Shown here: positions 15,428 to 49,502 of the stretch, in pieces
Numbering within the stretch: the stretch's first letter is position 1
Layout: each line of letters starts with the position of its first letter
DNA from: an uncultured Eubacterium sp.
Lineage (GTDB): Bacteria > Bacillota > Clostridia > Lachnospirales > Lachnospiraceae
Length of the DNA: 49,635 bases
Assembly (NCBI GenBank): GCA_947384955.1
Contig: CANDJC010000020.1
Location: 1 to 49,635 of the forward strand
Reading direction: 5' to 3'
Program-made: the position numbers and the translations under genes
The notes under the pieces: model-generated
The model's database searches: none
The model's input: the letters and a program-made list of their open reading frames with translations, nothing else
Told to the model about the DNA's origin: nothing

Positions 15428-15490
15428 AATTTTTCCTTCTTTCTACTTTATTAATTTTCTTTTTTGGGGGGGGGCATTTTTGTGGCTGTG

Positions 15491-15742
15491 CGGACGCCGG
15501 GCGGCGGAGAGAGGTCCTGGCTTCCTGTTACGGCTCCAGAATGTTAAGAATCCCTAAGCATTCTGCGCTTACGTTTTGGCCCCGGACGGTCGCGGCACCT
15601 AGTTCGCCCTGGCCTGCAGCCAGCAGCTAAAGGTGCCGCTTCGGCTTCGCCGCCTGGTTATCTGGCAGAATGCTAAGGGATTCTAAACATTCTTCCAATG
15701 TAACAGGAAGCCAGGACCTCTCCCCGCCGCCCGGCTGGTTTT
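15491..15742 (+). repeat. Palindromic element copy A (long hairpin with conserved core)
   Basis: Outer arms 15496-15530 and 15701-15735 are complementary at 34 of 35 positions (one A-C mismatch). Inside them a second imperfect stem pairs 15535-15565 with 15664-15695, broken by A-A mismatches (AGAATGTTAAGAATCCCT against AGGGATTCTAAACATTCT). The head contains stem GCGGCACCT / AGGTGCCGC (15592-15600 / 15631-15639), with CTGGC...GCCAG inside and the GGC-TTC-GCC hairpin after it. Copies B, C and D share the core. Confidence 0.92.
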
Positions 15743-15776
15743 CATAAAGTTTTACTTGAAAAACTGTTCGTATATC

Positions 15777-16037
15777 TTATATCAGCATAATTGCAGTATA
15801 TCGTTGCTGGAAATATATATTAATTAAGATATCTTATATCAGCATACTAACAATATGCAGCCATCGAAAAGTCTGTCTGAAAGGCATCCTGTACCAGACA
15901 TGTTATATCATCATGCTGACAATATACAGCCATCGAAAAGTCTGTCTGTTGGCATCCTGTACCAGACATGTTATATCATCATACTGACAATATACAGCCA
16001 TTAAAAAGTCTGCCTGTAAAGCATCCTGCATCAGAAA
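15777..16037. repeat. Tandem 68-69-bp repeats between the two palindromic elements
   Basis: Three near-identical units begin with TTATATCA at 15834, 15903 and 15971, each continuing with '..AATATACAGCCAT' and 'AAAAGTCTG.CTG', then 'GCATCCTG.A.CAGA'. A degenerate partial unit begins at 15777. The periods are 69 and 68 bp. No coding frame or spacer diversity of a CRISPR type is present. Confidence 0.85.
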
Positions 16038-16076
16038 TATTCAGCCCAGCCGGAACAATATTCACGTAACACTTCT

Positions 16077-16328
16077 CGAAAACCAGCCGGGAGAGGGGAT
16101 TTGCCAGGGATTTCGGCGGCATTGGAAGAATGTTTAGAATCCCTTAGCATTCTGCCAGATAACCAGGCGGCGAAGCCGAAGCGGCACCTTTAGCTGCTGG
16201 CAGAAGGCCAGGGCGAACTAGGTGCCGCGACCGTCCGGGGCCAAAACGTAAATGCAGAATGCTTAGGGATTCTTAACATTCTGGAACAGCCGCCGAAATC
16301 CCTGGCAAATCCCCTCTCCCGGCGTCCG
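16077..16328 (-). repeat. Palindromic element copy B (inverted relative to A)
   Basis: Outer arms 16086-16120 and 16289-16323 are perfectly complementary over 35 bp. Their sequence differs from the arms of copy A over most of its length beyond the shared GCCGGG end. The core (16121-16288) is nearly identical to the reverse complement of copy A's core, including the AGAATGTTAAGAATCCCT / AGGGATTCTAAACATTCT stem and the GCGGCACCT / AGGTGCCGC head. Confidence 0.93.
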
Positions 16329-16357
16329 GTTAGCCAAGCATCCCCCCTCTGAGTATT

Positions 16358-39983: not shown

Positions 39984-40988
39984 TTAATCCGCGGGTTCGG
40001 CTTCCCAGCTGCGGATAGCTCCGCTGTAGGCATCGATTTCAAATTCATATTCCATGCCGTTATAAATGATTTTTCCTTCATATTCCATGATGCCGTCGTC
40101 CAAATCCGTTTCAAATTCGAAGATGTCGCTGACCGATGCTCCCGGAACCTGAGCCAGCGCCAGTTCTTTTGCTTTTTCTTCGGAAATCTTTTTTTCTCCG
40201 GTTCTGGAATGAGACGGAGCAGTTTCGGTGTCATAGTCGTATTTTATAATACTTCCGTCAGAGGCATCGATTTCGTAATCATATTCTTTGCTTCCTTTAT
40301 CATAAAATTCGATTTCATATACTGTGCGCCCGTGCTCATAATCCAGCTCACACTTTAGAAAAACGGCATCCCTGCTGGAAACGCCTGCATGTTTGAGTGC
40401 CTTTGCTTTGGCATCTTCCTGCGTAATCACAGCTTCCCCGTTCTTCTGACTGGCTGCTGAATCAGCGGCAGCGCCGTTTTTGCCTGCATTCTGCTGGCTG
40501 GCGGATGTGCCGTTTTTAGCAGAATTCTGCGGGCCGCTGGCGCTGCCGTTATTATCAGTATTCTGCGAATCGTCGGCAGTGCTGTTTTTGTCAGTGTTCT
40601 GTGAATCGCTGGCAGCGCCGTTTTTGCCTGTATTCTGTGAACCGTCGGCAGCGCCGTTATTATCAGTATTCTGCGAATCAGCGGCTGTACTGCCCTGACT
40701 GGTGTCCGGCGTGCTGGAATCGATAATGCTTCCGGTCAGGGCATCAATGTCGTATTTGTAAGTCTGCCCTTCGTTTGTAAAATCTACCTGATAATAATCC
40801 ACACCGCTGCGGCTGGCAAGGTCAGATGCGGTAAATTCCACATCCGCTGCGGACAGGCTGGCATCTTCTAATGCCACGCGTTTTGCTGCGTCTAATCCGA
40901 TAAAATCCATCTGTGCTTTCTGTCCTGCACAGCCGGAAAATAACAGTGCAGTCAGTCCGGCAGCGCATAGAAAATAGTTTGCTTTCAT
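39984..40988 (-). CDS. PepSY-domain lipoprotein with Ser/Asn/Gly repeat linker
   Basis: A 334-residue protein with a lipobox 'LLFSGC' near residues 15-20, so it is lipid-anchored. A PepSY domain (about 30-90) is followed by a low-complexity linker of about six 12-residue units ('ADSQNTDNNGA', 'DGSQNTGKNGA', 'SDSQNTDKNST' and so on). Two further PepSY domains follow ('EDAKAKALKHAGVSSRDAVFLKCELDYEHGRTVYEIEFY'; 'EKAKELALAQVPGASVSDIFEFETDLDDGIMEYEGKIIY'). The linker probably spans the wall. It lies 108 bases behind the histidine kinase gene. Confidence 0.9.
   Translation of the reverse strand: MKANYFLCAAGLTALLFSGCAGQKAQMDFIGLDAAKRVALEDASLSAADVEFTASDLASRSGVDYYQVDFTNEGQTYKYDIDALTGSIIDSSTPDTSQGSTAADSQNTDNNGAADGSQNTGKNGAASDSQNTDKNSTADDSQNTDNNGSASGPQNSAKNGTSASQQNAGKNGAAADSAASQKNGEAVITQEDAKAKALKHAGVSSRDAVFLKCELDYEHGRTVYEIEFYDKGSKEYDYEIDASDGSIIKYDYDTETAPSHSRTGEKKISEEKAKELALAQVPGASVSDIFEFETDLDDGIMEYEGKIIYNGMEYEFEIDAYSGAIRSWEAEPAD
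40470..40695 (-). repeat. In-frame 36-bp tandem repeats encoding the lipoprotein linker
   Basis: Six imperfect units encode 12 residues each around 'SQNTDKNGA'. The unit length is a multiple of three, so copy-number changes would vary linker length without breaking the frame. Confidence 0.8.
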
Positions 40989-43334: not shown

Positions 43335-43396
43335 GTAACTGCTGATTGACATACTTGGTGAATCTGCTAGAATAAATATATGTAAAAAGGATGGAG
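43335..43396. repeat. 62-bp direct repeat, left copy, containing a promoter
   Basis: Identical to 44251-44312 at 61 of 62 positions (G/A difference in CTTGGTG / CTTAGTG). It contains TTGACA (43346-43351), 16 bases, TAGAAT (43368-43373), and ends in AAAAAGGATGGAG, a ribosome binding site. It drives the 77-residue gene. Confidence 0.93.
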
Positions 43397-44250: not shown

Positions 44251-44312
44251 GTAACTGCTGATTGACATACTTAGTGAATCTGCTAGAATAAATATATGTA
44301 AAAAGGATGGAG
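44251..44312. repeat. 62-bp direct repeat, right copy, containing a promoter
   Basis: Second copy of the repeat at 43335-43396, with TTGACA (44262-44267), 16 bases and TAGAAT (44284-44289). It drives the interrupted AAA-ATPase gene. The cassette of two small genes lies exactly between the copies. Confidence 0.93.
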
Positions 44313-48892: not shown

Positions 48893-49090
48893 TTTCTGCC
48901 TCCATTTGTTTTGATTTGATGCAGGACAATGCCGGTGCTGATGCTGCTGCCCGGAGAGGGGCGGGCTGCGGGGATTGTCTGTTCTGGATTATCATAGCAT
49001 AGAAAAGGGGGATTTTTCTAACACAGGGGGGATATTTTCTTACATTTTTGTAAGGGATGGATTGGAGAATGCCGGGGGGAGGTGGCTTCG

Positions 49091-49341
49091 CGGACGCCGG
49101 GAGCGGGGATTTGCACGGTCTTCCTGCGGCGGTTCCAGAATGTTAAGAATCCCTAGGCATTCTGCATTTACGCTGTGGCTGCGGACGGTCGCGGCACCTA
49201 GTTCGCCCTGGCTTACAGCCAGCAGCTAAAGGTGCCGCTTCGGCTTCGCCGCCTGGGTTTTGAGCAGAATGCCAAGGGATTCTAAACATTCTTCCAATGC
49301 CGCAGGAAGACCGTGCAAATCCCCGCTCCCGGCTGTTTTTT
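49091..49341 (+). repeat. Palindromic element copy C
   Basis: Outer arms 49096-49130 and 49299-49333 are perfectly complementary over 35 bp. Their sequence differs from both copies A and B, sharing only GCCGGG and short patches. The core closely matches A (AGAATGTTAAGAATCCCT, GCGGCACCT / AGGTGCCGC, CTTCGGCTTCGCCGCC, AGGGATTCTAAACATTCT). The spacer to copy D (49342-49502) contains another imperfect inverted repeat, GCGAGGATGTTTT near 49376 against AAAACATCTCCGC at 49472-49484. Confidence 0.93.
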
Positions 49342-49502
49342 GGAAGGATTTACGTATGTATGAGAAGTTCTGCGGCGAGGATGTTTTTTTGGAAGCCATT
49401 ACATAAAAAATTCTGCGAAATATCTGTTTTCTGGCGGCAGTTTACAGTCTGACTGCCATCGAAGCTTCACCAAAACATCTCCGCTTTTCACGTAAATTCT
49501 AC

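Follow-up and report, generated by a model that had tools for sequence, protein, structure and literature searches.

A genus-specific, MITE-like paired-hairpin element in an uncultured Eubacterium sp. with ties to an Rfam RNA family

The stretch of DNA analysed here (the window) comprises 49,635 nucleotides of contig CANDJC010000020.1 from the genome of an uncultured Eubacterium sp. of the Lachnospiraceae (assembly GCA_947384955.1), and carries four copies of a long hairpin, the last of which is cut by the contig end (Table 1). The preliminary description of this DNA had treated the first three, A, B and C, as members of a repeat family of single elements and had assigned the family to the interval 15491..16328. 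The hairpins are present at these places and the repeat family is genuine; the interval, in contrast, spans two copies, hairpins A and B, which form one convergent unit (composite 1) around a spacer of 334 bp. Within this spacer, three tandem copies of a unit of about 68 bp occupy positions 15814-16017. Both hairpins are predicted to fold into a single rod, at -164.8 kcal/mol for A (z -13.36) and -165.7 kcal/mol for B (z -13.40), and none of 200 shuffled sequences was as stable in either case. A motif, TTAC[AG]T[GA], marks the inner junctions: of 95 copies in the window's own genome, 57 have it in their inner flank and none in their outer flank. A scan for promoters and terminators between 15200 and 16600 gave no signal above that of shuffled sequences. 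Two other kinds of repeat were observed elsewhere in the window, namely two direct repeats of 62 bp (43335-43396 and 44251-44312; 98% identical, 916 bp apart) and a 36-bp tandem repeat with five overlapping members at 40473-40692, on the strand opposite to the open reading frame 39984-40988.

Table 1. Positions of the hairpins and of the sequences that flank and separate them in the window
Feature	Position	Strand	Basis
Composite 1, left outer G-rich end (GGGGGGGGGcatttttgtggctgtg)	15466..15490	+	similar outer flank beside 95 listed copies
Hairpin A, arm type II	15491..15742	+	sequence reading, repeat listing, fold
Inner junction motif beside hairpin A (ATAAAGTTTTACTTGAAAAA)	15743..15762	+	
Composite 1 spacer, AT-rich	15743..16076	.	
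Inner junction motif beside hairpin B	16060..16076	-	
Hairpin B, arm type I	16077..16328	-	sequence reading, repeat listing, fold
Composite 1, right outer G-rich end	16329..16348	-	
Composite 2, left outer G-rich end	49074..49090	+	
Hairpin C, arm type I	49091..49341	+	sequence reading, repeat listing
Composite 2 spacer	49342..49493	.	
Hairpin D, fourth copy, cut by contig end	49494..49635	-	sequence reading, repeat listing

The search of the window's own genome (G000, a draft of 5.06 Mb in 271 contigs) with a 22-nt core pattern, allowing up to three mismatches, gave 225 matches, split almost evenly between the strands (112 and 113), against none for the reversed pattern, so that the hairpins of the window represent more than a chance resemblance. 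Reading of 80 own-genome loci from among the matches listed covered at least 130 matches and at least 95 full copies with flanks. The core, which had been called nearly invariant, is conserved, yet genomic copies differ by 10% on average over the apical 80 nt. By DNA search the element was matched in nine of 13 genomes of the genus, the own genome included, and in none of the other four. The exact core was found in 16 stretches of a genome contig collection, 14 of them from two MAGs named 'uncultured Eubacterium'; the remaining two, from Kapaibacterium and Amorphoplanes, lacked the hairpin, and weak DNA matches in two further genomes (G021, G054) lacked the profile of the element. No match to the element was obtained in the phage, plasmid and viral collections searched, and none of the listed papers on miniature repeats in Lachnospiraceae or on long-hairpin pairs looked similar to it.

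The hairpins, treated as single elements in the preliminary description, turned out to be halves of convergent pairs. At the own-genome loci, 45 of 50 neighbouring pairs were convergent, and their spacers measured 113-2,455 bp. Of the five exceptions, three were in fact one hairpin interrupted by a 153-bp insertion, one spanned the 4.3 kb that separate two units, and one was a true same-strand pair (2.1 kb apart). When only full-length copies of the own genome and its relatives were considered, 58 of 64 neighbours were convergent; four of the six others were in (-,+) order, 1.6-5.8 kb apart. Spacers in relatives were as short as 55-120 bp, and some hairpins that appeared to be single possess a remnant partner. 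A pair usually combines a hairpin of arm type I with a hairpin of arm type II. In 28 pairs of the own genome the mean distance between the arms of partners was 0.419, compared with 0.324 for shuffled partners, and none of 2000 shuffles was as high as the observed value. Mixing of the two types exceeded that of shuffled partners in three of the four genomes tested, the other two being G003 (57 of 2000 shuffles as high) and G009 (72 of 2000); in G005 it did not (955 of 2000).

The units are found between genes, in gaps of all orientations. Open reading frames were called by a simple longest-ORF rule; of 109 nearest outside frames, 48 ended toward the unit (median gap 50.5 bp) and 61 started away from it (median gap 156 bp). 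The direction of neighbouring genes is therefore irrelevant to the placement of the units, which stand near stops and keep some 150 bp away from starts. Tandem arrays of 34-90-bp units derived from hairpin-arm junctions were seen in the spacer of the window (15814-16017) and in those of three other loci (L111, L147, L307), and similar arrays in the outer flanks of L071, L118 and L135, that is, also outside pairs; they look as if replication had slipped beside the hairpins. The 153-bp palindromic insertion is nearly identical in its three own-genome occurrences (L109, L126, L078) and sits at the same core position, at CTAG; it is apparently a second small mobile element with a CTAG/CTGG duplication. 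Small genes, named by eye, were noticed in the spacers of L073, L106, L340, L129 and L074, those of L073 and L106 encoding GNAT-like acetyltransferases and the others including a RelE/ParE-like toxin; they look like passengers.

The claim that the outer arms of each copy pair with one another was borne out by reading of the sequence, with perfect pairing in B and C and one mismatch in A, and it extends to the genome. Across 92 own-genome copies, mispairing affects 50 of the 3,204 aligned positions of the outer arms (19 further columns contain gaps) and 42 copies have perfect outer arms, while the left outer arm differs by 25% on average between copies, compared with 10% for the apical core. 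Many copies with unpaired, randomly diverged arms were looked for in the own genome and were not found. The partner arm of the same copy was the best match, ties allowed, in 52 of the 60 copies tested out of these 92. In relatives, where the arms of 89 copies differ by 40% between copies, 203 of 3,310 columns were mismatched and a further 63 contained gaps. An alignment of 40 copies from nine genomes had 97.5% of its cells paired, against 83.2% after shuffling, and pairing fell to 35-47% when the partner was slid by 1-3 columns; 48 of 67 pairs changed on both sides, and all five measures lay above 500 of 500 shuffles and above every slid version. Two A·A mismatches are retained in the inner stem of the consensus. 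One exception was read in a relative, at L284, where the arms do not match and a type-I outer half is joined to a type-II outer half. Overall, change in one arm of a hairpin seems to be accompanied by change in the other.

The preliminary description had proposed, among other options, an unreported structured RNA. Scanning of the window against Rfam at the gathering threshold gave no match, and neither hairpin A nor B matched the TwoAYGGAY family (RF01731) at E up to 1, nor did A at E up to 5; the full-length but weak match of hairpin A to Bacteria_large_SRP, obtained at permissive thresholds (24.1 bits vs a threshold of 60; E 0.26 and 0.072) was judged a chance match of two rods. Several window-type hairpins of the relative G009, in contrast to those of the window, gave eight RF01731 matches of 39.6-50.5 bits at seven loci, four of which reached the threshold of 43. 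The matched strand is the reverse of the orientation chosen in the preliminary description; for hairpin B, the plus strand is the sense strand with respect to this relationship. One own-genome copy (C13:1157-1321) reached 44.4 bits, again vs 43, and six other loci of the window type gave one match, slightly under the threshold. The idea of an unreported RNA has to be amended, as a distant relative of the module is already in Rfam, although the window copies fall below the family threshold.

Judged by sequence and layout, the hairpin module is a divergent relative of TwoAYGGAY RNA. Both form a long rod with an inner stem (GAATGTTNAGAA...), a conserved CCGTCCGG near the apex and variable, self-pairing outer arms, and both occur as inverted pairs; the window subfamily differs in its apex, which lacks the AYGGAY loops (absent from hairpin B by reading, present in canonical copies of G008), and in scoring mostly below threshold. 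With at most the 105 best candidates scored per genome, RF01731 was found among these candidates in six of the 13 genomes of the genus (at least 40 matches in G009, 20 in G008, 19 in G000, 16 in G006, nine in G001 and seven in G010), of which G001 and G006 had RF01731 matches but none in the DNA search. At the level of the order, where the best seven candidates per genome were scored, at least 34 of 392 genomes had a match, at least 32 of them over the threshold. Among the matches listed, RF01731 neighbours within 3 kb showed (-,+) order in 15 of 17 instances from the genus and in all eight from six genomes of other genera, which is the same arrangement as (+,-) in the orientation of the preliminary description. 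Canonical TwoAYGGAY copies likewise have variable arms that match themselves (own-arm score 0.65 vs 0.23; in 19 of 27 no other arm matched better than the own one), and five canonical pairs of G009 shown with both arms each combine, by reading, two arm types. The canonical pairs examined for target duplications had none. We know of no description of TwoAYGGAY as part of a mobile pair.

These relationships raise the question whether the hairpin functions as a structured RNA, such as a small RNA that binds protein, in which co-variation would reflect compensatory evolution and mobility, if any, would be secondary. In one list of candidate structures TwoAYGGAY is entered with 'y' for RNA and 'n' for cis-regulatory (PMC2864571), and a role as a CsrA-binding sRNA has been proposed for it (PMC4333381). 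Besides the existence of this family, the strong co-variation, the better conservation of the apex than of the arms and the A·A mismatches kept in the inner stem speak for such a function. Restoration of pairing via RNA wobble would lead to an excess of G·U over A·C mismatches and to a dominance of transitions. The one-sided mismatches of the own genome are G·U in 18 and A·C in 20 cases, without an excess of G·U; in relatives G·U prevails with 83 to 46, but 37 of these G·U cells fall in one basal column, and without it (outer-arm rows summed by hand) the numbers are 30 and 47. Among own-genome copies, distinct both-sided changes at up to three columns comprised transversions and transitions in a ratio of 26:23, as compared with 113:86 at unpaired columns, so that transversion-type double changes are as frequent as where nothing pairs. 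Since the units are, moreover, indifferent to gene direction and the AYGGAY loops of the family are missing from hairpin B, we regard a primarily RNA-based function as unlikely.

When DNA synthesis switches template inside a hairpin, both arms can change at once, a known mechanism that has been proposed for RNA genes (PMC8794818). Among own-genome copies that differ at a single pair-column, the change was both-sided in 23 of 28 comparisons, which are not independent as the copies are related, and the distinct both-sided changes at one column comprised 11 transversion and four transition pairs. This suggests that copying of one arm onto the other at the DNA level underlies the co-variation in the own genome. 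In relatives, the closest comparisons, subject to the same dependence, were both-sided in two and one-sided in six cases, followed by 26:32 and 57:54 in the next classes, and their mostly one-sided changes speak against arm copying there. Selection for the folded form may act as well, because the inner stem keeps its two A·A mismatches, which simple copying would erase.

The ends of the units, GTAACAGTTCAGATA.GGTGTTACA, became apparent in relatives. In G007, the pair at locus L211 has GTAACAGTTCAGAT.GGGTGTTAC repeats at its boundaries, together with an 8-bp direct repeat. Searches with the end pattern of L211 gave 180 matches in G010, 12 in G007, 11 in G008, six in G009 and three in the own genome, with no control match anywhere and no match in the other eight of the 13 genomes of the genus; these include G002, G003, G004 and G005, in which hairpins are present. 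Among 397 genomes of the family, three of which belong to this genus, the own genome alone matched, and no other genus did; an autonomous parent element sharing these ends was accordingly not found in this set. In G010, G007, G009 and G008, terminal inverted repeats bound the elements. Sixteen elements of relatives with both ends measured 104-787 bp and contained two, one or no intact hairpin. Their 8-bp flanks were identical at eight positions in three elements, at seven in three, at six in one and at four or fewer in nine. A duplication of at least 7/8 was thus present in six of 16 elements, against one of 240 mispaired combinations, and lacking in the other 10. A further element, L263, reaches 8/8 if four extra bases are assigned, post hoc, to its end, and the element at L284 (320 bp), which consists of the two unlike outer halves mentioned above, has a perfect duplication. 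A palindrome of about 46 bp (GTTACTTTTCAC...GTGAAAAGTAAC) adjoins the unit at L211, and similar ends are present beside canonical TwoAYGGAY pairs of G009.

In the own genome the ends have decayed. A GTTYAGA-like remnant was found in nine of 95 outer flanks (1.63 expected from shuffles) and in none of 95 inner flanks. Such remnants are the only traces of the ends visible there; mobility of the units in the genome of the window is inferred. The M20 peptidase gene at the site of hairpins A and B is absent from all other genomes of the genus. No clean empty site was seen in the orthologous regions compared at three sites; one further orthologous region is without the pair, but its intergenic region has diverged otherwise. 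This last region, together with the absence of the element from four of the 13 genomes by DNA search, the variable spacing and the target duplications in relatives, argues against a host architecture or insulator element like BIMEs that would serve chromosome or transcription control. Although high copy number, intergenic sites and paired inverted layout would suit such an element, we consider this reading improbable.

Of the options listed in the preliminary description, a hairpin-type MITE is the best supported, but not the Y1/RAYT transposase named there as its mover. REPINs are inverted hairpin doublets in extragenic space (PMC3116915), and the present units share this layout of paired palindromic modules. 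They differ from REPINs and BIMEs in measuring about 250 bp per hairpin rather than the length of a short REP, and in possessing terminal repeats with 8-bp duplications. Nor do Y1 counts track the element: G002 has the element and no Y1 match, and G004 has 54 Y1 matches and three element matches. Terminal inverted repeats and target duplications fit a DDE-type transposase better than a Y1 enzyme. A REPIN-like element moved by Y1/RAYT is accordingly very improbable.

An origin from IS66 would account for the GTAA with which the unit ends start, as do IS66 copies in G004 (GTAAACGG), and for the length of the duplication, since 8-bp repeats are described for IS66 members (PMC3281130). Beyond GTAA, however, the ends differ from the IS66 ends of G004 and G010, and no IS66 gene was found inside the units or tracking them. 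The profile PF03050 had no match in G000, G003, G007, G009 and G010, and PF05717, searched in six genomes, had one match each in G007, G008 and G010 only; both results carry little weight, as draft assemblies can lose multicopy insertion sequences. Neither Y1/RAYT nor IS66 parentage is supported, and descent from IS66 appears doubtful. The near-complete genome of the relative G004 is unusually rich in IS66 (91 matches) and in Y1 (54) and has few hairpins (three matches).

No transposase was recognised inside any unit examined, the spacer frames being read by inspection. With terminal inverted repeats, target duplications, intergenic sites, high copy number and the lack of a transposase, the element resembles MITEs, from which it differs by two long hairpin modules with distinct arms and by having no known parent. 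While MITEs measure a few hundred bp and the 16 elements of relatives fall between 104 and 787 bp, own-genome units extend to about 0.6-3 kb. Foldback-type transposons such as Galileo and Tm1 share long, inverted, foldable ends with tandem repeats; they are eukaryotic, and in the present element each end forms a closed hairpin of its own.

Taken together, we consider it likely that a non-autonomous, MITE-like transposon is made up of these hairpins as its inverted halves. Such a unit would consist of a terminal inverted repeat, a type I hairpin, a spacer, an inverted type II hairpin and a second terminal inverted repeat, and a putative transposase acting in trans would place it in intergenic DNA, duplicating 8 bp of the target. 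Later, spacers would enlarge via tandem duplication and nested insertions and occasionally contain a gene. The hairpin module itself would descend from the TwoAYGGAY RNA hairpin or share an ancestor with it. The outer arms of a hairpin would stay complementary while changing, most likely because DNA synthesis copies one of them onto the other, by template switching in a hairpin or cruciform, to which selection for the folded form is perhaps added.

The element provides an architecture, in which two different long hairpins form the inverted halves of a MITE-like unit, and gives a catalogued RNA of unknown function a mobile context. More than 100 natural replicates per genome are available for asking whether co-variation arises from selection on RNA or from template switching of DNA. 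Somewhat against our expectation, yet worth considering, TwoAYGGAY as a whole might be the hairpin module of paired-hairpin transposons widespread in Clostridia, with much of its co-variation, which is usually taken as proof of RNA structure, stemming from arm-to-arm copying at the DNA level. If this were true, an Rfam family would be a mobile DNA element, and co-variation alone could mislead.
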